A DNA stretch of 47,725 nt from Sulfurovum sp. (lineage in GTDB: Bacteria > Campylobacterota > Campylobacteria > Campylobacterales > Sulfurovaceae), in contig JALUBF010000032.1 in the NCBI GenBank assembly GCA_027045015.1, positions 22,981 through 70,705 on the forward strand, written 5' to 3'. Below, piece by piece: positions 6,946 through 42,701 of this stretch. Position numbers and translations under genes: made by a program. The notes beneath the pieces are model-generated. The model ran no database searches and was not told the DNA's origin. It saw nothing but the letters and a program-made list of their open reading frames with translations. The stretch's first letter is position 1, and each line of letters opens with the position of its first letter.

Positions 6946-8409
6946 GTGGAAACTAACATTATAGAAACACAAAAATTCATACTAAAACTCTTTCCTGAAA
7001 TTATGGTAAAGGGTTCATCAGCTAAACGTCAAATGGTTGGACAACTCTACAACAACTTACTAAAAATGTTAGAAATTTTTAGTGAAGATATAAATGTACG
7101 AAAATTCTCTGACAAGATAGAGGTAGTAACACCCATAGAGTTTGTAGTAGAGGTTAGAGAGCTTTTGTTAAATACCTCTGGTATTGAGCAGGTTCTTGAA
7201 GCCTTACAGTTTGACAAGATAAACACACTTGATGAGATAAAAGTCAAAGTTGGTGAAATTATGCATAAAGAGATAGATGGTAAAACATTTGTAGTACGGG
7301 CAAAGCGTTCTGGTACTCATGAGTTTCGTTCAACCCAACTAGAGCAAACTGTAGGTGGATATATGTTAGCTACATACCCTAGTAATGGCGTTGATCTGCA
7401 CAATCCAGAAGTAACAATTCGCATAGAGTTAATAAACAATCAACTAAATATCATTACTCATAAATACATAGGGCTTTCTGGATTTCCCATAGGTACACAA
7501 GGAGATATACTCTCTTTGATGTCTGGAGGATTTGACTCTACGGTTGCATCTTATCTTACTATGAAACGTGGACTTAAAACCCATTTTATCTTCTTCAATC
7601 TTGGTGGTATAGCACATGAGATAGGTGTAAAACAGGTAGCTCTTTATCTTTGGAGCAAATTTGGCTCTTCACATAGAGTAAAGTTTATCTCTGTACCTTT
7701 TGATGATGTACTAACTGAGATCTTTCGCTCTACCCACAACACATATATGGGTGTAACGCTTAAACGTCTTATGCTTCTTGCATCTGAAAAGATAGCCAAC
7801 AATATGGGTATAGATGCTCTTCTTACTGGTGAATCTGTAGCACAAGTAAGTAGCCAAACTCTTCGTAACTTAGCACTTATTGACCAAGTAACTACTAAAC
7901 TTGTTTTGCGTCCACTATCTACTATGAATAAACCTGAGATAATAGACATAGCCAACAAGATAGGTACTCGTCGCTTTGCAGAGAGTATGCCTGAGTATTG
8001 TGGAGTAATCTCTAAAAATCCAATAACTCATGGCTCATACAAACGTATGGAGCGTGAAGCAAAACATTTTGATTATAGTGTATTGGATAAAGCTGTTGAA
8101 GATGCTCAACACATCTATGTAGATGAGATACTAGATGATGTTACAAACAATACAGCCATAGAGGTAGTAAATGAACTTAATGATGAATATGTAGTTATAG
8201 ATATACGTGCAGAAGATGAGTGTATAGAAACTTCATGTAAAAGTATCAAGATACCATTTCACAAACTCAAATCTGAATTTAAAAAACTACCACAAGATAG
8301 AGAGTATCTATTATATTGTGAAAAAGGGATAATGTCACAATTGCACGCTCAGTATCTAAGAGATGCTGAAGATGCAAAAAATGTCAGAGTGTATAGACCT
8401 TTAGATTAA
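6946..8409 (+). CDS. thiI: tRNA 4-thiouridine synthase with rhodanese domain
   Basis: A 487-aa cytosolic enzyme that makes s4U8 in tRNA and may pass sulfur to thiazole synthesis. In order it has a ferredoxin-like region beginning LKLFPEIMVKG, a THUMP domain (about 65-165), a PP-loop ATPase with SLMSGGFDSTVASY, and a C-terminal rhodanese domain. The rhodanese domain has the persulfide cysteine C458 in LLYCEKGIMSQ. Many Campylobacterota ThiI proteins lack the rhodanese part, so its presence is informative. The start is GTG, after GAAGGT. It converges with the M14 gene and overlaps it by 4 bases. Confidence 0.93.
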   Translation: METNIIETQKFILKLFPEIMVKGSSAKRQMVGQLYNNLLKMLEIFSEDINVRKFSDKIEVVTPIEFVVEVRELLLNTSGIEQVLEALQFDKINTLDEIKVKVGEIMHKEIDGKTFVVRAKRSGTHEFRSTQLEQTVGGYMLATYPSNGVDLHNPEVTIRIELINNQLNIITHKYIGLSGFPIGTQGDILSLMSGGFDSTVASYLTMKRGLKTHFIFFNLGGIAHEIGVKQVALYLWSKFGSSHRVKFISVPFDDVLTEIFRSTHNTYMGVTLKRLMLLASEKIANNMGIDALLTGESVAQVSSQTLRNLALIDQVTTKLVLRPLSTMNKPEIIDIANKIGTRRFAESMPEYCGVISKNPITHGSYKRMEREAKHFDYSVLDKAVEDAQHIYVDEILDDVTNNTAIEVVNELNDEYVVIDIRAEDECIETSCKSIKIPFHKLKSEFKKLPQDREYLLYCEKGIMSQLHAQYLRDAEDAKNVRVYRPLD

Positions 8410-10982
8410 TATTTCTCTAAAGGGTGATATACAACAGTAGCAGATTTGGAGAAGTTTGGTACATCATCATATGCAAATACTGCATAAAACTTCTTCTTAT
8501 CAAATGAGGCAAAGTTATCATATGTATATGTATCTTTACCTCCATATATCTTTACACCGTCCATAAAATGATTTGGTATATGAAAGCTATTTCTTACAAC
8601 ATAGTAGCCTTTTATCTCTTCATCATCTACTTTATCCCAAGAGAGTTTTATCATCTTATTCTCTTTTGTTATCTTAAGATTTTCCACTTTAGCTGTAAGC
8701 TCTCTTCTTTTATGGATATATTTAATAACTAGTTCTACATCAGTGTTCCACTGAACTATCCTATTTTTCATACCTAGTGATGATGTAGGTTTTATAACAA
8801 GTTTTAACTTTTTACCCTCTTGATACATCTCATCCAATACTCTCTTAGAGAGTGTATCAAACTTAAAGTATTGATACTCTTTTTTTGATAAATCATTTTC
8901 TGCTACTTCATAACCAATATACTCTATCTTTTCACGATTTTCAATATCGTCATAAGTACCAACTTCATCAAGTTCTACCAACTCAACATAGTAGTGTACA
9001 TCTGATTTACTCTTAAAAGTATTGTTATTACGTATGCGTAATGCACATTGAGTTATCATATTGGTTTTAGAGTCTGGTAATTCTGCCAAATCAAAATCCA
9101 AATATCCATAGACTCTTTTCCCATTTTTGTCAAATCCTGATTTAAGTCCATCTTCTACCATATCTACAGATATAGTAGATGTTGAAGATGTTGTAAGTTT
9201 TATCTTCTCATTCTCAAGTGTATATTTGATATCAAGTATAGGTCTATAGTGGATACCACCACCAAACTTACCATAACCTATATCAAACTGCATCAATTGT
9301 GAATCTTCCCCATCAGGTAAGTTTTTAGGACCATCAAGTCTAAATACAACCTTGCCTCTATTTATCTCATCTTGCAGAAGTTCACACTCATGCTTAGAGA
9401 AACTCCAATGATTCCAGATACCTTGAGTTAGATTACTAGACTGTATAGCACGTCCTATAACACCTTTACTATTTGCATTCTCTACTTCATTAAAGTCTGT
9501 AACTTCACTGAAACTCTCTTGATCAAGTAAAGATAGGTTCCACTCTCCAAATTTCTCTATCTTTGCACCTACACGATTCATAGGGTAAATGTAAAAACGA
9601 GCCGATTTAATAATGGCATTTTCTGGTATGCTCTCAAGATCAAAGCTCATTACAGCATCACAGATACCACGAGATTTATTGATACCTACAAATAGTGAAT
9701 TGAGTCCAAAATGTGAACGATTCTGCTCTTGTGTGTACTCTCCAACATATCCTGTACCTGATTTATTTGCAAATATAAGTTTAAAAAACTCATCATCTTC
9801 AAGCCATGTACGCACTTTAACTACTGGTGCAAAAGGAGATTTGTAACCAGTTGTCTTATTGACTGCCCGTATAGTATAGTGATAGTTTGTAGATGAATTT
9901 AAGTCTCTATCTGTAAAAGTTTGCTCTCCAACTATACCAACCATTGTACGCTCATTACAGGCATCTTTATCGTTAGTACTTCTATATATCTCAAAATATA
10001 TATCATTACGTACTTCATACTTCCAACTAAGTGTCACAGATGTAGCATCTCTACTATCTATAGTAAAATCATCTACACGTTTTGGTGCTACTGAAGAGTA
10101 GTTAATAACCTCAGAGAAAGCATACTTAAGTGCTGGTATATTTTCATCTATACTTCCTGACATACTTTTCATATAATCAGGTATATTTTTAGTTCCTACC
10201 TCAGCAACTATAGCTATGATACCTTTTGAGTAGTAGTATTCACGTCCAGAACCACTTATGAGTCCTGCTGGTGGCTTACCTCTGTGTATTCCATATTTGC
10301 GTCCAGTCACTTTTGCAAACTCATCATTCATATTGGCACAAAGAACATTCATATCTGTACCATCTATCTCTGCTTCATGCATAAATTTATGAGCAGGAAA
10401 AAATACATTTCCCTGAGAGTGATAATCAAATGCTATAGTGATATTTTCATGAGCATCAACAAACTCTTTTATGGCTCTAGTCTCTGCTTCTGAAAATGGT
10501 TCTTCTCCTCCATATACATTAGATGATGTATTTGAATTTTTTATAAACCCAACAGAGAAGTTACGATTGAGATCAACTCCTATAGTACCATCATGGTTTT
10601 TACGTCTATTTTTACGCCAAAATGAAAAATGTTTACGAGAGTATTCATATCCATCAGGATTTAAACAAGGTACCATATAGATAGTAGATCTACTAAGTGA
10701 TCTCTCCAAAACTGGATCTACATCTTGATTTTTAGCTACATCACTAATAAATTTAAGTGCCAACTCATGCCCTACCCATTCACGTGCATGGATACTTCCA
10801 GTAAATAGCATAGCCGGTTTTTCATCAGCTCGCTCGACATCTTTACTTATCTTGGCAAGGACTATATCTCGTCCCTCGTAAGTTGTACCTATCTTCTCTA
10901 TCTTTATAAGGCTAGGATACGATTTTTCCATCTCATATAGAAAGTTTAAACTTTCATCATAAGACATATATTGGTTTTTCAT
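8406..10982 (-). CDS. M14 zinc carboxypeptidase with fibronectin III and DNRLRE-like beta domains
   Basis: An 858-aa protein. Residues 1-300 are an M14 carboxypeptidase with HAREW (zinc H65, E68), CLNPDGYEY, VDLNRNF (N139/R140), zinc H188 in DYHSQG and catalytic E261 in VAEVGTK, so it should be active. Next come a fibronectin III module (about 304-390), two beta-sandwich regions like DNRLRE domains (about 400-590 and 590-755), and a second FN3 module at the C-terminus. No signal peptide is visible, and an in-frame TAA lies four codons before the ATG, so a missed leader is ruled out. Its promoter is at 11013-11018, downstream of the ATP-grasp genes. Confidence 0.85.
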   Translation of the reverse strand: MKNQYMSYDESLNFLYEMEKSYPSLIKIEKIGTTYEGRDIVLAKISKDVERADEKPAMLFTGSIHAREWVGHELALKFISDVAKNQDVDPVLERSLSRSTIYMVPCLNPDGYEYSRKHFSFWRKNRRKNHDGTIGVDLNRNFSVGFIKNSNTSSNVYGGEEPFSEAETRAIKEFVDAHENITIAFDYHSQGNVFFPAHKFMHEAEIDGTDMNVLCANMNDEFAKVTGRKYGIHRGKPPAGLISGSGREYYYSKGIIAIVAEVGTKNIPDYMKSMSGSIDENIPALKYAFSEVINYSSVAPKRVDDFTIDSRDATSVTLSWKYEVRNDIYFEIYRSTNDKDACNERTMVGIVGEQTFTDRDLNSSTNYHYTIRAVNKTTGYKSPFAPVVKVRTWLEDDEFFKLIFANKSGTGYVGEYTQEQNRSHFGLNSLFVGINKSRGICDAVMSFDLESIPENAIIKSARFYIYPMNRVGAKIEKFGEWNLSLLDQESFSEVTDFNEVENANSKGVIGRAIQSSNLTQGIWNHWSFSKHECELLQDEINRGKVVFRLDGPKNLPDGEDSQLMQFDIGYGKFGGGIHYRPILDIKYTLENEKIKLTTSSTSTISVDMVEDGLKSGFDKNGKRVYGYLDFDLAELPDSKTNMITQCALRIRNNNTFKSKSDVHYYVELVELDEVGTYDDIENREKIEYIGYEVAENDLSKKEYQYFKFDTLSKRVLDEMYQEGKKLKLVIKPTSSLGMKNRIVQWNTDVELVIKYIHKRRELTAKVENLKITKENKMIKLSWDKVDDEEIKGYYVVRNSFHIPNHFMDGVKIYGGKDTYTYDNFASFDKKKFYAVFAYDDVPNFSKSATVVYHPLEKY

Positions 10983-11012
10983 TGATAATAATCTTTATAT
11001 GGAATTTTTGAA

Positions 11013-11018
11013 ATTATA
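11013..11018 (-). promoter_or_regulatory. -10 box for the M14 carboxypeptidase gene
   Basis: GCTATAAT on the minus strand, with a predicted start about 22 bases before the ATG at 10982. Together with the hairpin at 11042-11067 it separates this gene from the ATP-grasp operon. Confidence 0.55.
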
Positions 11019-11041
11019 GCAAATTTTCTGTAGGGTAAGTT

Positions 11042-11067
11042 TGTGGGGTGTTTAAAACACCACCACA
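11042..11067 (-). terminator. Hairpin just after the ATP-grasp/HhH gene
   Basis: TGTGG-GGTGT pairs with ACACC-CCACA, with a single bulged A and a small loop, seven bases past the stop. A U-rich tail follows only on the plus strand, so on the minus strand it may be an attenuating or 3'-protecting hairpin. Confidence 0.45.
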
Positions 11068-11073
11068 TTTATA

Positions 11074-12504
11074 TTATTGTAATCTATTTTTAAATGCTTG
11101 CCATGCTTTATCTAGCTCTTTAAGCATCTTTTTCTTAAACCATGAAAAATCTTTTAAAAACTCCTCTGGTCTCTCTTCCAATCTTTGGATAACTTCATTA
11201 TCATCTATCTTGTTAAGTATCTCTTTTACTTTTTTATTGCCAATACCCTTAACAGATGTAAATACCTCTTTTATATGCTCTTGAGTAATCTCAATAACCG
11301 ACTCTTCACTCTCATCACTACCAACCTCATCATAGGTATCTTTAGGATTTGATTTTGTATGAACTTTTCTTACACTATGTCCATAGTTATCTTGAAAGTT
11401 CCACTTCTCACTTGACCACTCTTCTGAAGTTCTATCTTTTGTAAGTAACATTGGATAAAGAGCATCTAGCTCATGCAAATACAATTCGCCATCTTTGGTC
11501 TCTTTAGTTTTTTTATCTAAAAAATATGCACCATCATAACTAGGTGTATATCTTCCAAAAGTTATGTAACGAAGTGTTCTTAGTACAGATGAATCCATTT
11601 TACCAAGCTCTTCCCAATTATATAGAGGGATATTTGGCTTAGCAAATCTACCATTTGAGAACTTCCACATTAAGTATTGACCTATCCAGTCTCTAATGTA
11701 TGGGAATGCTGCAAATGCAGTAGCACACTCCAATATACGATATTTACCATCTTCACCTACAGCTACATCACATGCCCAATACTCAGCATTTGCAGATTTA
11801 GACACTTGTACAGCAAGATCAAGAAGCTCTTTAGGCACGTCCATATAGTCCATACTTCCACCTTGAGAGGTGTTAGTTAGCCACTCACCTTCTGGTGGAC
11901 GTCTCCAAAATGCACAAACTGGTTTATGTCCTATAAGCATTACACGTACATCAGCAGACATTGGAACAAAGTCTTGAAAATATGCTGGGTGATACTTCTT
12001 TTGAGCTAAAAGATTATGAGCCTCTTGAGCAGAATCAACTTTATGTACAAAATAGCCACCATAGTTAGATGGACCATAAGATTTTTTGATAATCTTAGGG
12101 AACTCTGTCTTGTCTATGAATTTAGATGCTTTCTCTTGATCATAAAATATATATGTTTTTGGAATAGGTATATCATACTTCCATGCAAAACGTGTTACAT
12201 TCTCTTTAGATTTATTTGAAAATTGTGTATCCATAGATGGTATAAACTGTACATTAGGAAGCTCACGAGCTATCTCTCTAAATGTCTCATAAGCAGTTGC
12301 AGGGATATTTCCTATCAATATATCTATCTTTTTACGTCTAACCTCTTTTACAAATCTATCTTTATCATTTTTCCAGTGGTAGATTACTGTTTCAATCTTA
12401 TCTGGCCACCCTCTAAAGTTTGATTTGTCAAAAAATCTTAAAACGTGGTCAAGGTATAGCATACCTATCTTTGGTAATTTATCTTCTTTTTTACTCTTTG
12501 CCAT
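11074..12504 (-). CDS. ATP-grasp ligase-like protein with C-terminal helix-hairpin-helix domain
   Basis: A 476-aa cytosolic protein. After a pre-ATP-grasp region come the ATP-grasp elements: PKIIKKSYGPSNYGGYF, YFQDFVPMSADVRVML, the R/G-rich segment WLTNTSQGGSM and CDVAVGEDGKYRILECA. In RimK-like ligases the last motif normally reads E-x-N, but here it is ECA, so one metal-binding Asn is missing. The C-terminal 70 residues include VKGIGNKKVKEIL, a helix-hairpin-helix motif that usually contacts nucleic acid. The gene follows the second ATP-grasp gene by 11 bases with its own AAGGAGA site. Substrate unknown; carboxylate-amine ligation is inferred. Confidence 0.75.
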   Translation of the reverse strand: MAKSKKEDKLPKIGMLYLDHVLRFFDKSNFRGWPDKIETVIYHWKNDKDRFVKEVRRKKIDILIGNIPATAYETFREIARELPNVQFIPSMDTQFSNKSKENVTRFAWKYDIPIPKTYIFYDQEKASKFIDKTEFPKIIKKSYGPSNYGGYFVHKVDSAQEAHNLLAQKKYHPAYFQDFVPMSADVRVMLIGHKPVCAFWRRPPEGEWLTNTSQGGSMDYMDVPKELLDLAVQVSKSANAEYWACDVAVGEDGKYRILECATAFAAFPYIRDWIGQYLMWKFSNGRFAKPNIPLYNWEELGKMDSSVLRTLRYITFGRYTPSYDGAYFLDKKTKETKDGELYLHELDALYPMLLTKDRTSEEWSSEKWNFQDNYGHSVRKVHTKSNPKDTYDEVGSDESEESVIEITQEHIKEVFTSVKGIGNKKVKEILNKIDDNEVIQRLEERPEEFLKDFSWFKKKMLKELDKAWQAFKNRLQ

Positions 12505-12515
12505 ATTGTCTCCTT

Positions 12516-13415
12516 TTATTGTTTTGTTTTTCTATCTATCATATCGACTATTAAATCAATCTTCTTTTTATTGAAATCAAGTCCCATCTTCTCTTGTTCT
12601 GGTGTAGCAAATGCAGGGATACCATTTACTTCAAGTACCACATACTCTTCTCTCTCTAAGTCATAAATGATGTCAACCCCTGCTATATCTGTACCACAAA
12701 CTTTAGCTGCTTTTTTAGCTATGGCTATAACCTCATCATCTGGCTCACGTAAAAATACAGAACCACCACTTGTAACATTGGTACGCCAATCCGATTTTGA
12801 TGCCTTACGCCCATAACAAGATACAAACTTACCATCTACTATATCTACTCTAAAGTCTGTATTGTCATACTTTACAAACTTCTCTACATAGAAAAAACGT
12901 AAATCCATCTGATTTAAAAATGGCAATAACATATCAAGTGTTGCTTGATTTTCTATCTTGGTTAGACCTACTCCACCCCAACCATCTGTTGGTTTATATA
13001 CCATTTTAGACCATTTATTCATAATCTTCTCTAACTGTTTGGTATTGTCTCTATGACAAAGCTGAAACTCTGGTGTTGCTATGCCATTTTGTTGAAGCAA
13101 AAAAGAGGTCTGAAACTTATCTTCAGTAAGAGCAAAAGCATCATAACTATTTATCATAGGTATAGCACGATTTAGTGCTTGATATAAAAAAGTCTGATAC
13201 TGAGTCTGCTCCCCAGCATTATAGGAAAAGAACAGATCAAGCTCATCTACCTTTAAGCCTTTATGATAGATATGCCCCTTTTTTGCTATGGCATTACGTA
13301 GATTTATATCTGTTACACTATCTATACCTCGCTCTCTTAGATTTTTAACAATCTTCTTTTGAATCTTGTCTCCACCACTGTTACCATAAAGCCATATACC
13401 TATTTTTCTGTCCAT
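12516..13415 (-). CDS. RimK-like ATP-grasp ligase
   Basis: About 299 aa. It has the RimK-type layout: an N-terminal Rossmann-like part (IGIWLYGNSGGDKI), a lysine-bearing MVYKPTDGWGGVGL loop, FRVDIVDGKFVSCYGRKAS, TSGGS, and the intact acidic/metal motif GVDIIYD...VLEVNGIPAF. The enzyme is predicted to join a carboxylate to an amine using ATP; the substrate may be an amino acid, peptide or protein end. I chose the ATG at 13415, preceded by GGAGGA; an in-frame ATG at 13448 lacks that. It is the first gene of a two-ligase operon, divergent from the M20 peptidase (105 bases between starts). Confidence 0.8.
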   Translation of the reverse strand: MDRKIGIWLYGNSGGDKIQKKIVKNLRERGIDSVTDINLRNAIAKKGHIYHKGLKVDELDLFFSYNAGEQTQYQTFLYQALNRAIPMINSYDAFALTEDKFQTSFLLQQNGIATPEFQLCHRDNTKQLEKIMNKWSKMVYKPTDGWGGVGLTKIENQATLDMLLPFLNQMDLRFFYVEKFVKYDNTDFRVDIVDGKFVSCYGRKASKSDWRTNVTSGGSVFLREPDDEVIAIAKKAAKVCGTDIAGVDIIYDLEREEYVVLEVNGIPAFATPEQEKMGLDFNKKKIDLIVDMIDRKTKQ

Positions 13416-13520
13416 ATTGTTCCTCCAAGTCATAAGTTTAATCTCCAATTCTACACTTTTTTACTAAAATAATCATATATAAATAAAAATTAAACTTATA
13501 AATAAAGAGAGTGTGACATT

Positions 13521-14618
13521 ATGAACAATTTTGATGAGCTAAAGAGCATTATAGAGATAAACTCATGGACAAAAAATAAAATAGGTGTAGATAAAAATGG
13601 GGAAATCTTTACAAAGTGGTTAGAGGAGTTAGGGTATATAGTAGAGGTACATCATAGAGAAGATATAGGTAATCACTTACATTTTAAATCTAAAAGTAAA
13701 GATGGTAAAAAGCTTCTACTTCTTGGTCACCTAGATACTGTATTTCCACCAGATACTTTTGAAGAGTTTAGAGAAGATAAAGAGTGGATATATGGTGCAG
13801 GAGTTTGTGATATGAAAGGTGGGAACTATGTTGCACTACAAGCATTACGAAATGCCAAAGCAAAATTTGGTGATATTTATAACATAGATTTTTTACTAGT
13901 AAGCGATGAAGAGACAGGGAGTGATGACTCTAAATATCTATCTAAAAAGATAGCAAAAGATTATGACTACTGTATGGTATTTGAAGCAGCAGGAGTCAAT
14001 GATGAAGTGGTCATTGGAAGAAAAGGTGTTGGTACATTTTTTATAGATATAAAAGGTAAAGCATCTCATGCAGGTAACCATTATACAGCAGGAGCAGATG
14101 CCAATCTTGAAGCCTCCAAAAAACTTATGGCTCTTGTATCGCTAACCAACTTAGATAAACAGACTACTGTAAATGTAGGTAAGATAGAAGGAGGCATAGG
14201 AGCCAATACCATCTCGCCTAATGCTCATCTTACATTTGAACTACGCTACACAACTACAGATGAACGTGATAGAGTTCTAAAAGACATAGATGAGATAGTA
14301 GCTCATAACTACGTGAATGGTACAACTTCAACACTTAGTGGTGGCATACAAAGAGATGTTATGCAACCATCTAAGCAACAAGAGATTTTCATAGAACACA
14401 TCAATGCTTTATGTCATATAACTCTTCCTACAGAAAAGAGAGGTGGAGTAAGTGATGCCAATATCATATCTTCACAAGGAGTTGCTACTCTTGATGGTTG
14501 GGGACCTTATGGTGATGGTGATCACACCATAAATGAACGTGCATCTAAGAAAAGTTTTATAGAACGTATAGAGTTAGTTAGTCAGATATTTAAGTATTTT
14601 TTAAAAGGAAATATATAA
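13521..14618 (+). CDS. M20-family zinc peptidase (glutamate carboxypeptidase-like)
   Basis: A 365-aa predicted cytosolic di-zinc exopeptidase. The motifs are GHLDTVFP (H70, D72), YGAGVCDMKGG (bridging D98), SDEETGS (catalytic E130, E131), the lid segment GKASHAG and the late zinc histidine in GDGDHTIN. The pattern is close to carboxypeptidase G2-like and CPDG2 relatives, which release C-terminal glutamate. No signal peptide. The ATG follows an AAAGAGAG ribosome site. Divergence from a two-ligase operon suggests it removes or recycles what the ligases add, but this is inference. Confidence 0.83.
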   Translation: MNNFDELKSIIEINSWTKNKIGVDKNGEIFTKWLEELGYIVEVHHREDIGNHLHFKSKSKDGKKLLLLGHLDTVFPPDTFEEFREDKEWIYGAGVCDMKGGNYVALQALRNAKAKFGDIYNIDFLLVSDEETGSDDSKYLSKKIAKDYDYCMVFEAAGVNDEVVIGRKGVGTFFIDIKGKASHAGNHYTAGADANLEASKKLMALVSLTNLDKQTTVNVGKIEGGIGANTISPNAHLTFELRYTTTDERDRVLKDIDEIVAHNYVNGTTSTLSGGIQRDVMQPSKQQEIFIEHINALCHITLPTEKRGGVSDANIISSQGVATLDGWGPYGDGDHTINERASKKSFIERIELVSQIFKYFLKGNI

Positions 14619-33392: not shown

Positions 33393-34532
33393 ATGAATAT
33401 AAAAAATATAAACAAAATTCCTTCTCCTTGTTGGCTACTTGAAGAAGATAAATTACTAAACAATCTTAAGCTTATAGCGTATATAAGTAAAGAATCTAAG
33501 GCAAAAATATTACTTGCATTAAAAGGATATGCTTTATGGAAAAGTTTTGATATATGCAGACCATATCTAAATGGTTGTTGTACATCTGGACTAAATGAAG
33601 CAAAACTAGCATATGAAACTTTTAAAAAAGAGGTGCATACATATAGTCCTGCATTTAAAGAAGATGAGATGGAAGAGATAGCAACTATCTCAAATCATAT
33701 AGTTTTTAACTCTCCCTCACAATTTAAAAAATATGCAAAAAAAGTAAAAGAGATTAACCCATCTTTATCTTTAGGGATTAGAGTAAATCCCCAATACTCA
33801 AAAGCACCTAAAGAGATATACAATCCTTGTGGATTATATTCACGACTAGGTACTACACTTTCAAACTTTGATGAGAGTATTTTAAAAGAGTGTGATGGGC
33901 TACACTTTCATGCACTATGTGAAGAGAGTGTAGATGCTCTAGAGAATGTATTGAATATCTTTGAAACTAAATTTGGTAAATATATATCACAAATGAAATG
34001 GATAAACTTTGGTGGTGGTCATCACATCACTAAAAATGGATATAATGTAGAAAAACTCATAGAAATTATAAAAAAATTTAAAGATAGATATAATGTAGAG
34101 ATATATCTTGAACCAGGAGAAGCGATAGGTTGGCAAACAGGTAACCTTATCACTACTGTTTTAGATATTGTCCATAATGACATAGATATTGCTATATTAG
34201 ATAGTTCTGCTGAAGCACATATGCCAGATACTATCATTATGCCTTATCGTTCAGATGTTATTGGAGCAGGTAAAGTAAATGAGAAACTATATAACTATCG
34301 TCTAGCTGGTAATACCTGTTTAGCTGGAGACATTATGGGTGATTATAGTTTTGATACTCAACTAAAAATAGGAGATAAGGTAATATTTTGTGACCAGATG
34401 CACTACACAATGGTAAAAGCTACTACTTTTAATGGTATAAATCTACCCTCCATAGCCATAAAAAGAACTAATGGAAGCATAGATATATTACGCAAATTTA
34501 GCTATGAAGATTTTAAATATAGGTTATCTTGA
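33393..34532 (+). CDS. nspC: Carboxynorspermidine/carboxyspermidine decarboxylase
   Basis: A 379-aa PLP enzyme of the alanine-racemase/ornithine-decarboxylase fold. It removes CO2 from carboxy(nor)spermidine in the alternative spermidine route used by Campylobacter and Vibrio. Features are PSPCWLLEEDKL, the PLP-lysine segment ILLALKGYALW, GLNEAKLAYE, YNPCGLYSRLGTT, HFHALCE and EPGEAIGWQTG. The dehydrogenase partner is not in the window. There is no ribosome site, and the promoter appears to abut the ATG. The 3' end overlaps the convergent kinase gene by 9 bases. Confidence 0.92.
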   Translation: MNIKNINKIPSPCWLLEEDKLLNNLKLIAYISKESKAKILLALKGYALWKSFDICRPYLNGCCTSGLNEAKLAYETFKKEVHTYSPAFKEDEMEEIATISNHIVFNSPSQFKKYAKKVKEINPSLSLGIRVNPQYSKAPKEIYNPCGLYSRLGTTLSNFDESILKECDGLHFHALCEESVDALENVLNIFETKFGKYISQMKWINFGGGHHITKNGYNVEKLIEIIKKFKDRYNVEIYLEPGEAIGWQTGNLITTVLDIVHNDIDIAILDSSAEAHMPDTIIMPYRSDVIGAGKVNEKLYNYRLAGNTCLAGDIMGDYSFDTQLKIGDKVIFCDQMHYTMVKATTFNGINLPSIAIKRTNGSIDILRKFSYEDFKYRLS

Positions 34533-37157
34533 CTCTATATTAATTATCTTATCATCAAAATATTCAATAAGAATTGTTTTTAAAGCATCTATATCTATTG
34601 GTTTTGATAAAAATCCGTCCATTCCTGCACCAAGATATTTCTCTTTATCTCCAGATAGTGCATTAGCAGTTAAAGCAATGATAGGTATATGTACACTATT
34701 TTTAGCTCTCTCATAAACTAAGATTTGTCCTGTAGCTTCCATACCACCCATAACAGGCATCTCTATATCCATAAATACCATATCAAATTTAGTAGTATCT
34801 TTATATAATGAAACAGCCTCTTTACCATTATTTGCGATAGTAACGTCTATTCCTAAACGTTGTAAAATATTTATTATAAGTTTTTGATTAATAGCATTAT
34901 CATCAGCAACTAAAATATTGAGATTATCAAACATAATCTTTTCACCAATAATACTACTATCCTCTTTATCACTAAGCATTCTAAGTGTTTTTGTAAAATT
35001 AATTGGTTTATATAATATCTTATCTATATATTTTTTATATCTTTTAATATTTTGCTTCTGATCTCCTGTAGTCATAAGTATAATTTTTGTATCAAGTTTT
35101 AAGAATTTTTCTATATCTGAATTATTTTCTCTAAACATATGATCAACAAATAAAATATCTGGAAGCTTAAGATTCATATCTATTAATTTCAATAATGCTT
35201 CTTCTGTATAATGTATGACTTGTGCACCTGTATAGCGTATATATGCTTCAAGATTTTCATTTATGATATATTTATCATCAATATGTGAATCAAGTATTCC
35301 TACAATATTTAAACTCATATCTTGAACTTTTCTAACTGTTGAATCTTCAGATTTATTCATAAGTAATGTAAAATAGAAAGTTGAACCTTTACCTTTAGTA
35401 CTATCTATTCTTAACTCATCTCCCATAAAATCAACAAATTTACCAGAGATAGATAATCCTAATCCCGTACCACCATATTTACGACTTGTACTTACATCTT
35501 CTTGTGTAAATGCATCAAAAATATTTTTCTGTTGCTCTTTGGTAATACCTATACCTGTATCAGAAACAGAAAATTTAATACGTACATCGCTACTCTCTTC
35601 TGCAACTTTCTCTATACGGACACTAACTTCACCATTGGTAGGGGTAAATTTAACAGCATTACTAATAAGATTTACAATAATTTGTGATATTTTAGTAGGG
35701 TCTCCTACTATTGATGTTGGTATACTAGGATCAATAAAAAGTTTAAAATTGATATTTTCCTCTGCAGCTTTAGCAGCATAAGATTCAACAGCTGTTTCAA
35801 AACGATCAATAGGATCAAAATCTATCTCTTCAAGTTCTATCTTTTGTGCTTTTATTTTAGATAAATCAAGAATATCATTAACAATAATCAAAAGATTTTC
35901 TGAACTTTTTTCAATTACCGATAAAAACTCCTCTTTCTCTTCTCTATCTTCTGTATCTTTTAAAAGCTGAGTAAAACCAACAATACCATTTAAAGGTGTT
36001 CGTATTTCATGTGACATACTTGCAAGAAATAGATCTTTTGTCTGATTTGCATCTTTAATAGCTTGAATTAAAAATTTATATATATAATCTACTTTTCCCT
36101 CATGAATTAAACGTTGTATCTCTTTTTGTTCATCTTTATCAAATACAAGGTCTATATCTTTAACTGTAGATATAGAAACATTTTTATTTTTAGATAATGA
36201 AAAATAATGGATAATAAAACTAAAAATTAAAAGAAGTAAAAATAGTAATATGCCTACATAACCTAATAATATATTTCTAAGAGATGATAAATGTTTATTT
36301 TCTATCTTAACTATTTTTGAATATAGTAAATTAAATACATTTGTAAAATATGCCTCTTTATCTTTCCATTTATCTATTAAAAGATTATATGTAATTGTAT
36401 AGTTACCTGTTTTACTTTGACTATTTATAACATTTCTTGTAAAATTCATTATAGATTTATATTTATTTTCACCTTTTAAAGCTTTAATAGCATTTGAAAA
36501 ATTACTATTGTCTAAAGTAGGTTGTACATCTTTAGCTATTAATCTTTTCCATAATGCCATATCATCTTTTCCCATAGGCTTATTCTTAATCAAAGTATAA
36601 TAAAGAAAATTGGTTTCTATAATACTATTTTCTTCAAGATTAGCATACTGTATATAAGAATTTATAGAATTCTTAACCCCTAATGATTGTATATTTCCAA
36701 TCTCTTCTATAAGTTTTACTAAAGAAGAAAATACATTGTGATAATCTTCATATAATATTTTAGAGTAATATTTTTTATTATATATATCTGTTCGTGTAAC
36801 TTTCAATATAGCTTTTAAGATATTTACTTTTTTAATTAAATATTTAGATAAATTATTTTTAGATATAGTTTCTATTAAAGTTTTAAAAGTTTTATCAGTA
36901 TTATATTTAGCATTTTCAAAATTATTAAGATTTTCTTCTGTTGGTTTTGCTAAATAATATGTGACCAATATACGTTCAGAGAAAAGCCTTTTTTGTAATA
37001 TATCTATCTCTTTTAAAATAGGAGAAATTCTTCCATAATGTTCAACTTCCTGATATTGTAAATAATTCTTGTATGTATATTGAGATAAAAAAGCAAATAT
37101 GGACAAAAGAAATACCAATATAACACTAATATATATTCTATTTTTAAATAAATTCAT
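34524..37157 (-). CDS. Hybrid sensor histidine kinase with NIT-like sensor and two receiver domains
   Basis: An 877-aa membrane kinase. Helix 1 (about 9-26) and helix 2 (about 297-317) enclose an all-helical periplasmic domain with LQKRLFSERILVTYYLA, like NIT (nitrate/nitrite-type) sensors. HisKA follows with the phospho-His H383 (SMSHEIRTPLNGIVGF), then an ATPase domain (NLISNAVKFTP, DTGIGI, GTGLGLSI). A divergent receiver (ILFVDHMF) comes next, then a canonical receiver with MVFMDIEMPVMGG and LTANALSGDKEKYL. No output regulator is adjacent, so the phosphorelay target is unknown. It lies 56 bases after tamB. Confidence 0.9.
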   Translation of the reverse strand: MNLFKNRIYISVILVFLLSIFAFLSQYTYKNYLQYQEVEHYGRISPILKEIDILQKRLFSERILVTYYLAKPTEENLNNFENAKYNTDKTFKTLIETISKNNLSKYLIKKVNILKAILKVTRTDIYNKKYYSKILYEDYHNVFSSLVKLIEEIGNIQSLGVKNSINSYIQYANLEENSIIETNFLYYTLIKNKPMGKDDMALWKRLIAKDVQPTLDNSNFSNAIKALKGENKYKSIMNFTRNVINSQSKTGNYTITYNLLIDKWKDKEAYFTNVFNLLYSKIVKIENKHLSSLRNILLGYVGILLFLLLLIFSFIIHYFSLSKNKNVSISTVKDIDLVFDKDEQKEIQRLIHEGKVDYIYKFLIQAIKDANQTKDLFLASMSHEIRTPLNGIVGFTQLLKDTEDREEKEEFLSVIEKSSENLLIIVNDILDLSKIKAQKIELEEIDFDPIDRFETAVESYAAKAAEENINFKLFIDPSIPTSIVGDPTKISQIIVNLISNAVKFTPTNGEVSVRIEKVAEESSDVRIKFSVSDTGIGITKEQQKNIFDAFTQEDVSTSRKYGGTGLGLSISGKFVDFMGDELRIDSTKGKGSTFYFTLLMNKSEDSTVRKVQDMSLNIVGILDSHIDDKYIINENLEAYIRYTGAQVIHYTEEALLKLIDMNLKLPDILFVDHMFRENNSDIEKFLKLDTKIILMTTGDQKQNIKRYKKYIDKILYKPINFTKTLRMLSDKEDSSIIGEKIMFDNLNILVADDNAINQKLIINILQRLGIDVTIANNGKEAVSLYKDTTKFDMVFMDIEMPVMGGMEATGQILVYERAKNSVHIPIIALTANALSGDKEKYLGAGMDGFLSKPIDIDALKTILIEYFDDKIINIESR

Positions 37158-37213
37158 AATAAATCCTTCTTGTTGATTATAGTATCCTACTACTTAAAAA
37201 ATCTTTTAAAAAA

Positions 37214-40054
37214 TTAAAAATCTTTTTTATATACAATATCATATGATTGAGATACTTCACTACCACTAAATATACTTTCAGTACTTCTGCTATGTCGATA
37301 TTTTACTTTAATCTTTGGAATTTTTCCATTTACATATATCACAGTTAACTTATTTGTAATTTTTTTACCAACTTCAATACTATTATCATTACCAATAACT
37401 AGATGATCTAAAGATATTCCCACATTATTTAAAGCTGATTTTGCTATAGCTCCACCCATCATACGCATCATATCTTCACTAGAATTTTTACCTGCAGCTT
37501 CTTCTGTATCAAAAAGTAATAGAGATAGTATCTGCCCTTTTGTCAATGTTGGACTCGAAGAAAAAACAATATTTGGCGTATTAGCAGAACCAGTAATACG
37601 TATAGTTATCAGATGATTTATAGATTTATAATGAACCACAATATTTAAAATCGGTTTATTTGGATTACCTGTAAAGTATATAGAGCTTTTATCTAAAATA
37701 AAACGTTTTCTCTCAAAAGTATAACTTCCACCTTTTAGTAGTGATACCTTTCCTAAAATCAATATCTTAGAATTTATGGATTTATGAATACCCAAATCTA
37801 AATTTCCACGAATATTAGCATCACCTTTTTTATATCTTAATGGTTTTTTTGTCTTAACTTTTATATTAAGTGATAAATTTTTCATAAAAGAGCTTTTCTT
37901 TTTCTTCTTTATCTTTTGGACAATAACAATATCACTATCTGATGCAAAAGTTTTTTTACTTAAATTATAATAAATATTTCCACCCAATAGATTTATATTT
38001 CCATTAATAGTCATTTTCATATTATCAAGTAATACTTTTAAATTTAAATTTGTATCTAAAGAGGCAATTTTTTGTGCAATATGAAATTTATTTGAAGATG
38101 TTAATATATTACCTTTTTTAGTTTTAAGATTATATCTTCCTTCTATTTTTAGATTATTATTTACCCAAAATTCTTCAATATTTACTATATCCCCATCAAT
38201 AGATACTTTTGATGGTTTTGTTGAAAATATCTTCTCTTTATTATAAATAAATTTATAATTTTTTAAAACTATTTTTGAATTATTCATTCCCACTTTTAGA
38301 GAAATATCTTTAATAATCTGTTTATGCTTTTTATCTTTAGCATAAATGATTTTTGGTGATTTTATAATCATATTAATATCTTTTAATTTATCTATAGAGA
38401 CATTACAATCAACTTTTCCAGATATATTTGGTATTTCATCTATATTGTAAACTTTTGAGATTTTTTTAAAAAAAGATTTTAAAGAGTTTATATTCAGTTT
38501 GACATCTACTATACTATTTGTATTTCCAGATATATTAATTTTATATCCTTCTAAATTAAATAAACCATTCAATTTAGTACTTTTCAACCTATAATTTATA
38601 TTTGCTTTAATAACTGGTGACTTTACAATAGTATTTATCTCTTTTTTATCAATTATAGACTTAATATATATAGGATTTAATTTATTTAGCTTTAAATTTT
38701 TATCATATCCTTTTAATAATGATTTTTTAGGTATAACTATTTTAGATACTATATTTAAATTATCTTTATACTTTATATCTGATTCTATATTTAAAAGATT
38801 TGATGTGATTTTTACTTTTGCTTTTCGCATAACATTATTATCAAAATATATAGGAGCATCAAGCACAAAACTTGCCCTACCTTTACTCAATTTAGAAGCT
38901 AAATCAATAAATTTACTAAGTAATATTTTATCTTTACTAGCTAAATGAAGTTTACCTTTTCTGAAATCATTTGATACAAATAAACCTTTTAATTTATTGG
39001 TATTTATATCTGCTTTTATACTCTTATTATCACCAATATAACCTATATTTAAATTTTTTAGAAGTTTTAAATATCTCTTATCTACTCCTAAAATATTATT
39101 GGTTTTCATATTTCCACTATATCTTATATTATTATTTTTTAGTATAAAATCATTACTAATATATATATCTTTTGCATAATTAGAATCAATAAGAAGTTTA
39201 CTTTTTGCTATTAAGATATTATCGTCTATATTAAAAAGTATATGAGATTTTAAGCTATTTATATCTATATTAAAACTATTTTTATTATCTGTTTTTAGAA
39301 CTTTTTTTATAGAAGTATCTATATCTGCCTCTACTATATCTTTTGTAGCATTAAAATCAATAGCTAAAGTTTTTATGGCTTTATGACGTATAGGTATATT
39401 ATACTGCTTGAATAGTCCATCTTTAGGTGAGATAAGAAGTTTACCTTTTAATCTATTATTTTTCACTAAACCATTTACATTGATAGTTGTTAAATTTGTA
39501 TCTATAAAAAGTTTCAATATCTTAAGATTTACACTATTATTATTATAATAAAGAGCATTTGCCTTTAATTTAAACTTAGAGATATATATATCACTCTGTA
39601 TAAATTTATTTATAGTAATATCTATATTATTTACAGAAATAGAAAAAGGCATACTACTATTACTATCTGTATCATCATTTGATGAGTTAAAAACTCTACT
39701 AAACATCATTACATTATCTATATCTAAACTATCAATATCTATATTAGATAAACCTATGTTTTTATAAAGAAGTCTTATAGGATTCCATTTAATTGTAATT
39801 TTTTTAGCTAATGAGAAATTTTCATAAGATAAATTATATACTTTAATACCCGTAAATATATTTCCATCAATATTCCTATATGTGATATTATAATCTGGTG
39901 CAAAATAATCTATAGCTTTTTTAATGACTAAAGAAGAATTTCCCAAAACATATAGTAAAATTCCCAATGTTACACCTAAAGTGACTAAACTTAAAATAAT
40001 TCTACGTATCAATAAAATTGGTGTTAAAAATAGTATCTTTTTTATATTACTCAA
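37214..40054 (-). CDS. tamB: TamB-like translocation/assembly module protein (AsmA/DUF490)
   Basis: A 946-aa protein with one N-terminal membrane helix (LSLVTLGVTLGILLYVLG), a very long repetitive beta-rich periplasmic body and a C-terminal TamB/DUF490 domain. That domain ends with ITGSANTPNIVFSSSP, SLLLFDTEEAAG and VNGKIPKIKVKYRHSR. TamB-type proteins bridge the periplasm and move phospholipids or help outer-membrane proteins. It begins four bases inside the tamA 3' end (ATGA overlap). It is richer in Lys, Asn and Ile than its neighbours, as is usual for this protein in AT-rich genomes. Confidence 0.87.
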   Translation of the reverse strand: MSNIKKILFLTPILLIRRIILSLVTLGVTLGILLYVLGNSSLVIKKAIDYFAPDYNITYRNIDGNIFTGIKVYNLSYENFSLAKKITIKWNPIRLLYKNIGLSNIDIDSLDIDNVMMFSRVFNSSNDDTDSNSSMPFSISVNNIDITINKFIQSDIYISKFKLKANALYYNNNSVNLKILKLFIDTNLTTINVNGLVKNNRLKGKLLISPKDGLFKQYNIPIRHKAIKTLAIDFNATKDIVEADIDTSIKKVLKTDNKNSFNIDINSLKSHILFNIDDNILIAKSKLLIDSNYAKDIYISNDFILKNNNIRYSGNMKTNNILGVDKRYLKLLKNLNIGYIGDNKSIKADINTNKLKGLFVSNDFRKGKLHLASKDKILLSKFIDLASKLSKGRASFVLDAPIYFDNNVMRKAKVKITSNLLNIESDIKYKDNLNIVSKIVIPKKSLLKGYDKNLKLNKLNPIYIKSIIDKKEINTIVKSPVIKANINYRLKSTKLNGLFNLEGYKINISGNTNSIVDVKLNINSLKSFFKKISKVYNIDEIPNISGKVDCNVSIDKLKDINMIIKSPKIIYAKDKKHKQIIKDISLKVGMNNSKIVLKNYKFIYNKEKIFSTKPSKVSIDGDIVNIEEFWVNNNLKIEGRYNLKTKKGNILTSSNKFHIAQKIASLDTNLNLKVLLDNMKMTINGNINLLGGNIYYNLSKKTFASDSDIVIVQKIKKKKKSSFMKNLSLNIKVKTKKPLRYKKGDANIRGNLDLGIHKSINSKILILGKVSLLKGGSYTFERKRFILDKSSIYFTGNPNKPILNIVVHYKSINHLITIRITGSANTPNIVFSSSPTLTKGQILSLLLFDTEEAAGKNSSEDMMRMMGGAIAKSALNNVGISLDHLVIGNDNSIEVGKKITNKLTVIYVNGKIPKIKVKYRHSRSTESIFSGSEVSQSYDIVYKKDF

Positions 40055-41817
40055 AATGATTGTCCTATCTGAAATGATATGCCATATTGTGACTTATCTG
40101 CTAAGTTAAATCCTGCATCTAATTTAAATGGTCCAATTGGTGTCATATATCTCAACCCTACACCTGCTGAAGATATAATATCTCCTTTAAAATTGTAGGA
40201 TTGATCTGTTAACATACTATTATCGCTAAATATAGCACCATACAAATCTCCATGTATTGGATAATCTCCCTCTAATGAGAGATTTGCCATAGTTAATGCC
40301 CCATAGTTTGTATCTTTTTTCTTGGAAGTTATAACTCCCAATTCATTATATCCATAAGCTCTATTGGAGTATGAACCACCTAAAAAGAAAAGTTTTGATT
40401 CAGGTAAACCTGTATCTGACTCTTCAGCTATGACACCAACCTTTCCAACAGTAGCAATAGTTAAATCTTTAAATGTTTTTATAAGTCTACCTTCAAATTC
40501 TACCTTATAATAAACACTTGCTTTATCATTTCGTGAAAGTCCTAGCTCACTATATCCAGAAAAATAGTAACCATTCTTTGGGTTTAATTTTGAATCACGT
40601 CCATCATATACTAAGTTAATGTACGGAGACAATAAAACAAATGTACCCTCATTTATAGCTTGTTTCAACTTTTTATTATATACATTGTTAAATGCATCAA
40701 TATTGATAACTTCTGAAGTCATACCTAAACGTACTTTTAAATTTTCATCTATATGTTCTAAATATGCATCAAAAAAGTATTTTTTTTCTTTAAAACCATC
40801 ATAATCAAGATTTGAAAACCCTGCACTACTAACTATATCTACACTTCTATCAAAAATAGTAAAAAAATCTGGTTTAAAAAAATCTCCCCTAAATAACTGC
40901 TCTTTCTTTGACCAAGATGCCTTAAGTTTTAACTTTTGAGCATTTCCAAAAAAATTATATTTTGTTATCGCTGTATGTATTCTTGAACCAAGATATGTAT
41001 CGTATCCTGCTCCAACTTCTGTATGATAATCTTTTTTTAACTCTACAAATTTAATATCTACAGGAACAACATTATAAATTTTATGACTTACATCTATAAC
41101 TACAGAATCAAAAGCATTAAGCTCATAAAGATTATCTGATGTCTCTTTTACAAGTTCGCTATTAAATATATCTCCTTCTTTTGCTCTAAGACGTGATTTT
41201 ACTACAGACTCATCAACGTTTTTAAGTCCTGATGTTGTTAATTTGCCAAACTTACATACCCCACCCTTGTGAAGAGTATATACTAAATCCACTATATGCT
41301 TATCTAAATCTACATAGGCTTTAGTATCTAAGTCATAAGAGCAATAACCTCTTTTTAATAGAGATGAGATAATCTTACTTTTTATCTTAACAAAACTCTT
41401 TGACTTAAAAATATCACCCTTTTTAAAAGTTACAATATCTTTTATATTATAGTCACTATCTATAGTTATTTTATTAACACGAACAGGTCTGTTTTCTTTA
41501 ATATGGACTATATAACTACTATTTGTATCGGTAATATTTAAATCAACATCATAAAACCCTTCAGATTTATAGAAGCTTTTTAATGATTCTGCTAAAGTTG
41601 GACGCAACTTATCTTTAAGTCTAGGAGTATCATCTTTCCAAAATTGAAAAAAACTTCTTTTCTCTACTCCCATCTCTTCGTCAAGTTTATCTTCATCAAA
41701 ATATTTTTGACCATAAAAATGTATCTCGTGTGTAGGCAATTTAATATCACCTGCTACACTATTTATAAAAATTGAAGATAGTATAATAAGATATAGAAAT
41801 ATCTTTTTTAAAATCAT
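40051..41817 (-). CDS. tamA: Omp85-family outer membrane protein, TamA-like
   Basis: A 588-aa protein with a signal peptide (LYLIILSSIFINSVAG), about three N-terminal POTRA repeats (ending near residue 250) and a 16-strand Omp85 barrel. The barrel includes LLSPYINLVYDGRDSKLNPKNGYY and FLGGSYSNRAYGYNELG (the RGY-like loop), and the final strand ends in FQIGQSF with the terminal aromatic. It pairs with tamB directly downstream (4-base overlap), and its start overlaps the gpsA stop by four bases. The Tam pair assembles outer-membrane components. Confidence 0.9.
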   Translation of the reverse strand: MILKKIFLYLIILSSIFINSVAGDIKLPTHEIHFYGQKYFDEDKLDEEMGVEKRSFFQFWKDDTPRLKDKLRPTLAESLKSFYKSEGFYDVDLNITDTNSSYIVHIKENRPVRVNKITIDSDYNIKDIVTFKKGDIFKSKSFVKIKSKIISSLLKRGYCSYDLDTKAYVDLDKHIVDLVYTLHKGGVCKFGKLTTSGLKNVDESVVKSRLRAKEGDIFNSELVKETSDNLYELNAFDSVVIDVSHKIYNVVPVDIKFVELKKDYHTEVGAGYDTYLGSRIHTAITKYNFFGNAQKLKLKASWSKKEQLFRGDFFKPDFFTIFDRSVDIVSSAGFSNLDYDGFKEKKYFFDAYLEHIDENLKVRLGMTSEVINIDAFNNVYNKKLKQAINEGTFVLLSPYINLVYDGRDSKLNPKNGYYFSGYSELGLSRNDKASVYYKVEFEGRLIKTFKDLTIATVGKVGVIAEESDTGLPESKLFFLGGSYSNRAYGYNELGVITSKKKDTNYGALTMANLSLEGDYPIHGDLYGAIFSDNSMLTDQSYNFKGDIISSAGVGLRYMTPIGPFKLDAGFNLADKSQYGISFQIGQSF

Positions 41818-42701
41818 TTTAGTAAATCCTCTACACTCTTCATAGGGTTTTTTCCCTTTTCTATCATACTATACACTTCAGATGCAATAGGAAGATATAT
41901 ATCTTTATCATTTGCTATTTTATAAAGTGCTTTAGATGTAGGAACACCCTCTGCTACTTCTCCCAACTCATCTAAAATCTCATCCATATCTTTTCCATTT
42001 GCAATGCCTAAGCCTACTCTAAAATTACGTGACATTGTAGAACTTGCAGTAAGAAATAGATCTCCTGCTCCACCTAAAGAGAGAAATGTCTCTCTTTTTG
42101 CTCCAAAAGCCTCTCCAAAACGTGTCATCTCTACCAATCCTCTTGAGATAAGTGCTGCTTTAGCATTATTACCAAGTCCAAGTCCTTCACATACTCCACC
42201 AGCTATAGCTATAACATTTTTGTATGCTCCACTCACCTCGGCACCAACAACATCATCACTAATATAACCTTTTATAAAATCAGGAAGTCCATCTGCATAA
42301 ATCTGTGCCAATTTACTATTTGTAGAGCTTATTATAAGTGCTGTTGGTAAAGACTCTTTAACCTCTGTAGCAAAAGATGGTCCAGAGATATAAGCAAGTC
42401 TATCTTCTGTAATAAATGCTCCATAAACCTCATTGAGAAATGCTCCTGTACTTGTCTCTATACCCTTTGCTGCTACTAATATATTTTGACCATTATCTAC
42501 CCAATTATCTTCTAGCCAACTACGTACAAACTGAGCAGGAATAGCCAATATTAGGTATCTACACTTTAATGCCTCTTGCATAGATACAAAATTTTCAATA
42601 TCTCTAATATTACGAGAAGATATAACTACATCATTTTTTTGACTATATGCGTGGTAGAGTGCTTGACCCCACTTTCCTGCTCCAATAATAGCTATCTTCA
42701 T
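41814..42701 (-). CDS. gpsA: NAD(P)H-dependent glycerol-3-phosphate dehydrogenase
   Basis: A 295-aa cytosolic enzyme that makes sn-glycerol-3-phosphate for phospholipid synthesis. Motifs are the N-terminal GAGKWGQAL, AAKGIE, SGPSFATEV, GAYKNVIAIAGGVCEGLGLGNNAKAALI, SLGGAGDLFLT and VAEGVPTSKAL. It is slightly shorter than average at the C-terminus but complete. Overlaps of four bases with both neighbours place it inside the gatB-to-tamB transcript. Campylobacter also has gpsA beside gatB. Confidence 0.95.
   Translation of the reverse strand: MKIAIIGAGKWGQALYHAYSQKNDVVISSRNIRDIENFVSMQEALKCRYLILAIPAQFVRSWLEDNWVDNGQNILVAAKGIETSTGAFLNEVYGAFITEDRLAYISGPSFATEVKESLPTALIISSTNSKLAQIYADGLPDFIKGYISDDVVGAEVSGAYKNVIAIAGGVCEGLGLGNNAKAALISRGLVEMTRFGEAFGAKRETFLSLGGAGDLFLTASSTMSRNFRVGLGIANGKDMDEILDELGEVAEGVPTSKALYKIANDKDIYLPIASEVYSMIEKGKNPMKSVEDLLK

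Follow-up and report, generated by a model that had tools for sequence, protein, structure and literature searches.

A four-gene cassette of two RimK-like ATP-grasp ligases and two carboxypeptidases, conserved in Campylobacterota, that may add and remove glutamate

What do two ATP-grasp ligases do when they are encoded beside two exopeptidases? The question is raised by a 47,725-nucleotide stretch of DNA from Sulfurovum sp. (contig JALUBF010000032.1 of assembly GCA_027045015.1), the whole of which is called the window here. The contig is part of a fragmented 1.38-Mb assembly, and its nearest relatives are Sulfurovum-like metagenome-assembled genomes. The families and strands that a first-pass annotation had given to the four genes were borne out by Pfam matches, with one correction to the start of ATP-grasp B. 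The minus-strand genes B, A, and M14 make up one transcription unit, from which M20 diverges:

8406..10982, minus strand: M14 zinc carboxypeptidase, 858 aa (Peptidase_M14, 5e-53, plus fn3 and DNRLRE)
11074..12504, minus strand: ATP-grasp A, 476 aa (RimK ATP-grasp, 4e-16; RimK/LysX-related core)
12516..13415, minus strand: ATP-grasp B, 299 aa, start corrected (RimK ATP-grasp PF08443, 1e-19)
13416..13520, no strand: intergenic region between the divergent B-A-M14 operon and M20, common to both units
13521..14618, plus strand: M20 carboxypeptidase, 365 aa (Peptidase_M20, 2e-20; PF01546, PF07687)

The open reading frame (ORF) listed for B spans 12516-13448 and opens with a TTG at 13448. The start of the 299-aa protein is almost certainly the ATG at 13415, which nearly all of the orthologues use. 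None of the four proteins reached an NCBIfam equivalog cut-off, and so none of them is a named enzyme. Within the window, the cassette is flanked by thiI on one side and by a DEAD-box helicase gene on the other. The ThiI protein (window 6946-8409) has a C-terminal rhodanese domain, and its gene, which lies on the opposite strand, overlaps the M14 stop by 4 bases. Farther along, an AT-rich stretch at 36-40 kb (window 34524-42701) is not exotic: it encodes a hybrid histidine kinase, TamB, and an Omp85/TamA-like protein, and the gene for the last of these is followed by a glycerol-3-phosphate dehydrogenase gene.

Co-conservation across the Campylobacterota, which the first-pass annotation had set as the test of its proposal, was evident when 298 genomes of this phylum were searched with each of the four proteins (threshold, at least 55% identity). 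Carriers numbered 31 for A, 31 for B, 32 for M14, and 32 for M20. All four genes were present in 30/298 genomes and a partial set in 4 (union, 34), and every gene pair was strongly associated (pairwise Fisher p < 1e-35 over the 298 genomes, in p values that ignore shared ancestry). The order M20-B-A-M14 was contiguous in 27/31 carriers of A; M20 stayed adjacent in either orientation, diverging in 14 of these cassettes and running co-directionally in 13. One genome (G074), in which a spurious ORF masks A and B, was assigned by gene coordinates. Where the cassette has come apart, its members have been kept: in two genomes (G009 and G129) M20, B, and M14 lie together with A elsewhere in the genome, and in a third (G249) M14 is on another contig, all four genes being retained in each. 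One further genome (G218) has A and M14 only. The spread of the cassette is patchy (about 15 of 58 genera), and the flanking genes differ. We conclude that M20, B, A, and M14 are a real module, inherited as a unit in a fixed order. Because of the patchy spread, the different flanks, and the co-retention after separation, we regard this module as a functional unit despite the kinship-blind p values.

The same arrangement extends beyond this genome set. A collection scan returned 340 relatives of A, 80 of which were kept, all from Campylobacterota or bacteria close to them. Among 77 further loci, complete cassettes were divergent in 39 cases and co-directional in 4, and many other loci were cut by contig ends. 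Marine or vent bacteria are numerous among the carriers, as are sulfur oxidisers; sulfidic-cave assemblies are represented as well. A search of a plasmid collection yielded one record with the cassette from another phylum, Photobacterium sp. DA100, in which M20 is divergent and B, A, and M14 follow in a row, B/A and A/M14 each overlapping by 4 bases; identities of its cassette proteins are 48-58%. No relative of A was found in viral contigs, on which ground a mobile or viral origin of the cassette was rejected. These distributions also bear on peptide scavenging, external or internal, in which unrelated exopeptidases would lie by chance beside ligases. M14 and M20 are indeed common degradative families, but the near all-or-none co-occurrence, the fixed order in two phyla, the co-retention after separation, and the lack of signal peptides (see below) all speak against such an accident; linkage largely refutes it, and we consider it very improbable.

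In Sulfurimonas-like genomes (L046:8336-14094, L048:8520-14174, L127, L138, L144, and L145), A occurs alone beside a gene of 188-210 aa, which is efp in L046. The lone A lies just before a dnaE-sized gene in L046, L048, and L127 (the L046 gene was recognised as that of DNA polymerase III alpha), and in another genome (G037, locus L064) only a fragment of A is left, near efp. The position of A between efp and dnaE had brought up EF-P as an acceptor; this candidate was set aside, the arrangement being confined to the one Sulfurimonas-like lineage.

To look for further partners, every ORF of 30 aa or longer was clustered over 112 loci. The four cassette genes were present in 88-107 of the 112, and every other neighbour family in at most 17. 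No recurrent ORF of at least 30 aa was found near the cassette as a fifth gene or precursor peptide, nor did any linked biosynthetic gene, carrier protein, transporter family, or RimB-like retropepsin recur among the neighbours in these loci. This lack of linked biosynthetic, carrier, or precursor genes makes it likely that the acceptor is something common to cells, whether protein or cofactor, and not a metabolite made for the purpose. PADLOC gave no match for any of the four proteins, and anti-phage defence was rejected accordingly.

The M14 protein consists of a catalytic domain (residues ~1-297), an fn3 domain (304-378), DNRLRE-type beta domains, and a C-terminal beta domain. Its catalytic residues are invariant in 84/84 sequences: the zinc ligands H65, E68, and H188, together with the catalytic E261 and the equivalents of R127/N144/R145 (R123, N139, and R140). 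The fold is that of the CPA/CPB/CPT group (M14A; Z of ~29 to CPB and CPA4), as judged from a predicted model that is weak around the active site. The N-terminal beta domain of the CCP (M14D) type is absent, the M14 domain beginning at residue 1-4. There is no prodomain, and N-terminal hydropathy revealed no signal peptide. In several loci the M14 start codon overlaps A. All 9 of the M14 proteins found in a 121-genome sample were cassette M14s; outside the cassette, M14 seems to be absent from Campylobacterota (9/121 genomes, all carriers).

At the main specificity site, Arg247 of the cassette M14 aligns with residue 255 of carboxypeptidase A4 (CPA4), and arginine occupies this position in all 84 of the 84 cassette M14s read. 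The controls were four well-aligned secreted bacterial M14s, which have Ile or Asp there, and a fifth that is unalignable at this site. The position of CPA Tyr248 varies across the cassette proteins. In vertebrates, Arg255 directs carboxypeptidase O (CPO) to acidic C-terminal residues, as tested for Xenopus Cpo.1, which cleaves Glu-Glu (PMC9925722). The invariant arginine suggests that the cassette M14 carries a CPO-like signature of acidic specificity.

The second peptidase has carboxypeptidase G2 (CPG2) as its closest solved relative. It matches PF01546 and PF07687 and has the dimerisation domain, and the metal-site motifs GHxD, CDMKGG, DEE, EAAG, and DGDHT are kept in at least 97% of 83 sequences. 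No signal peptide was found in M20 (N-terminal hydropathy) or in A and B, so that all four enzymes are predicted to be intracellular.

Of the two ligases, B has the complete RimK catalytic set (K152, R200, R214, D259, E273, and N275 in the numbering of the TTG-start ORF), with K152, D259, E273, and N275 present in 95/95 sequences. Against TIGR00768 (cut-off, 143.4 bits), both B (128.8) and A (82.3) score under the cut-off, and the best score of B is against MptN. In Pseudomonas RimK, R189 and N262 contact the ADP-proximal glutamate, and R64 and S68 are acceptor-side polyglutamate contacts (PMC10092738). Residues matching R189 and N262 are retained in B, and Y and E stand in place of R64 and S68. 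With the acceptor-side contacts missing, the acceptor of B would differ from that of RimK, and the added amino acid could differ too. This bears on whether the cassette modifies ribosomal protein S6 in the manner of RimK, M14 and M20 replacing RimB. Such a role would be in keeping with ligases that are RimK relatives, given that in Pseudomonas S6 receives polyglutamate from RimK and is stripped of it by RimB (PMC11957791). The acceptor-side substitutions in B argue against it, and it gains no support from the S6 tails, which in the genomes where they could be read (some were not) are acidic, mostly with an -EA end, and alike in carriers and noncarriers. We consider modification of S6 improbable.

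ATP-grasp A is more divergent. At its ATP site Lys, Asp, and Glu are retained; its metal site reads E259-C260-A261 instead of E-x-N, with Ala in place of the metal-ligand Asn in 108/108 sequences. From this change, A may be inactive or may carry out other chemistry; the loss does not by itself imply inactivity, since PurK-type enzymes function in the absence of this Asn. A core (residues ~1-330) is followed by an acidic linker and a variable C-terminal domain, often helix-hairpin-helix-like. The C-terminal third (window 11074-11500 and the orthologous regions) differs between lineages, and the helix-hairpin-helix-like end resembles that of a 762-aa protein (L065) taken as a RecD2-like helicase. 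We take this likeness as domain sharing and claim no DNA role from it.

The alignments and fold matches of A invite two further explanations. A aligns best with LysX, and Foldseek on its poor AlphaFold model (mean pLDDT, 58) gave generic ATP-grasp matches, including ArgX, LysX, PsnB, and MdnB. With LysX and ArgX among these, and with LysK itself an M20 enzyme, one could picture a LysW-type pathway modelled on LysX and LysK, the ligase loading an amino-group carrier protein from which M20 would free the product. LysW was found in 0/12 carrier genomes, although control genomes gave matches, and no small ORF recurs beside the cassette, which leaves this pathway highly improbable. The matches to PsnB and MdnB recall graspetide clusters, where two ATP-grasp macrocyclases would act with processing peptidases, and ATP-grasp pairs are known in microviridin clusters. 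Graspetide profiles score far under their cut-offs, however, and the neighbour test gave neither a recurrent precursor-sized ORF (at least 30 aa) nor a recurring transporter family; a graspetide origin is equally hard to credit.

Together, the RimK-type ligases, whose family for the most part adds glutamate, the acidic-signature M14, and the CPG2-like M20, intracellular and co-inherited, fit a system that adds and removes glutamate. We give about an even chance to the reading that the cassette works on its own inside the cell, adding glutamate to a cellular acceptor and taking it off again. The linkage is observed directly across genomes; the glutamate chemistry is read from sequence signatures. 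Support for the removal half comes from the Arg at position 255 in every cassette M14 and from the likeness of M20 to the glutamate-releasing CPG2, and we infer the addition half from RimK family membership. In the proposed mechanism, B, perhaps in a complex with the divergent A, would use ATP to place one or more glutamates in alpha linkage on an acceptor carboxylate. M14, recognising a macromolecular substrate through its large beta-rich tail, would cut glutamates from the C-terminus; M20 would hydrolyse the small glutamyl products, or else an acceptor in small-molecule form.

The first-pass annotation had offered either an add/remove tagging system or a peptide-metabolite pathway. Linkage and the removal signatures uphold the pairing of addition with removal, and the choice between protein and small molecule is one that sequence cannot make. 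On the small-molecule side, A and B would build an acyl-Glu or peptide metabolite or a cofactor, to be salvaged or turned over by M14 and M20; candidates are a compatible solute, an NAAG-like dipeptide, an alpha-glutamyl folate, or another cofactor. The substrates of most RimK relatives are small molecules (as for MptN, CofF, and NAAG synthase), MptN is the best match of B, CPG2-type M20 enzymes act on folate-like substrates, and the marine or vent habitat of many carriers would suit a solute. Yet no other biosynthetic gene is linked in the 112 loci, an M14 that runs to 858 residues and includes several beta domains would be unusual for a dipeptide, and a purely marine solute fits poorly with carriers from sulfidic caves. 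We regard a small-molecule product, whichever candidate is chosen, as a real but minority possibility. Somewhat doubtful as well, though worth stating, is the proposal that the cassette is a bacterial writer/eraser for reversible protein glutamylation, with B and A as a two-ligase writer and M14 as a dedicated cytosolic, acidic-specific eraser.

Our literature search found no description of the four-gene set; a 2009 survey of amidoligases lay outside its reach. The principle of writing and removing glutamate tags in bacteria is already known, since RimK and RimB do so, and it is the enzyme set that was not described in the literature searched. If the glutamate reading is true, the cassette would be a portable writer/eraser pair for glutamate tags in bacteria and would offer a genetically simple setting for reversible glutamylation, which has been studied mostly on tubulin; its cytosolic carboxypeptidase, specific for acidic residues, could become a tool, as could its new ligases for amino acids. 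Even with a small-molecule acceptor, a conserved four-gene pathway without an assigned product has been defined.

Several known systems resemble the cassette in part. RimK-RimB (RimABK) likewise pairs a RimK-family ATP-grasp ligase with a glutamate-removing peptidase. Its eraser, however, is a retropepsin endopeptidase, whereas the cassette has M14 and M20 exopeptidases; it has one ligase rather than two, and S6 as the cassette acceptor is without support. LysX/LysK also combines a RimK-like ATP-grasp with an M20 hydrolase, but the cassette lacks LysW (12 carriers) and has M14 and a second ATP-grasp. The NAGGN osmolyte operon, built of ATP-grasp/GNAT and peptidase functions, is another bacterial case of an ATP-grasp ligase adjoining a peptidase; its enzyme families are different, and the cassette has no asparagine-synthetase-like gene. 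Among single enzymes, CPG2 shares its conserved M20 metal-site motifs with the cassette M20 and is exported, whereas the cassette enzyme has no signal peptide and is tied to its partners. CPO shares Arg at 255 and the absence of a prodomain with the cassette M14. CPO is secreted and GPI-anchored, in contrast to a cassette enzyme that is predicted to be cytosolic, carries fn3/DNRLRE domains, and has a partner in its operon. Finally, TTLL and CCP, to which the first-pass annotation had compared the cluster, offer an ATP-grasp writer and a cytosolic M14 eraser of acidic specificity. This comparison holds as an analogy and not as kinship: the cassette ligases are RimK-type, its M14 has the CPA/CPB/CPT fold and lacks the N-terminal domain, and M20 is an addition. 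Should the acceptor prove to be a protein, which we advance only tentatively, the layout would be like that of the tubulin code, made of RimK and CPA-type parts.
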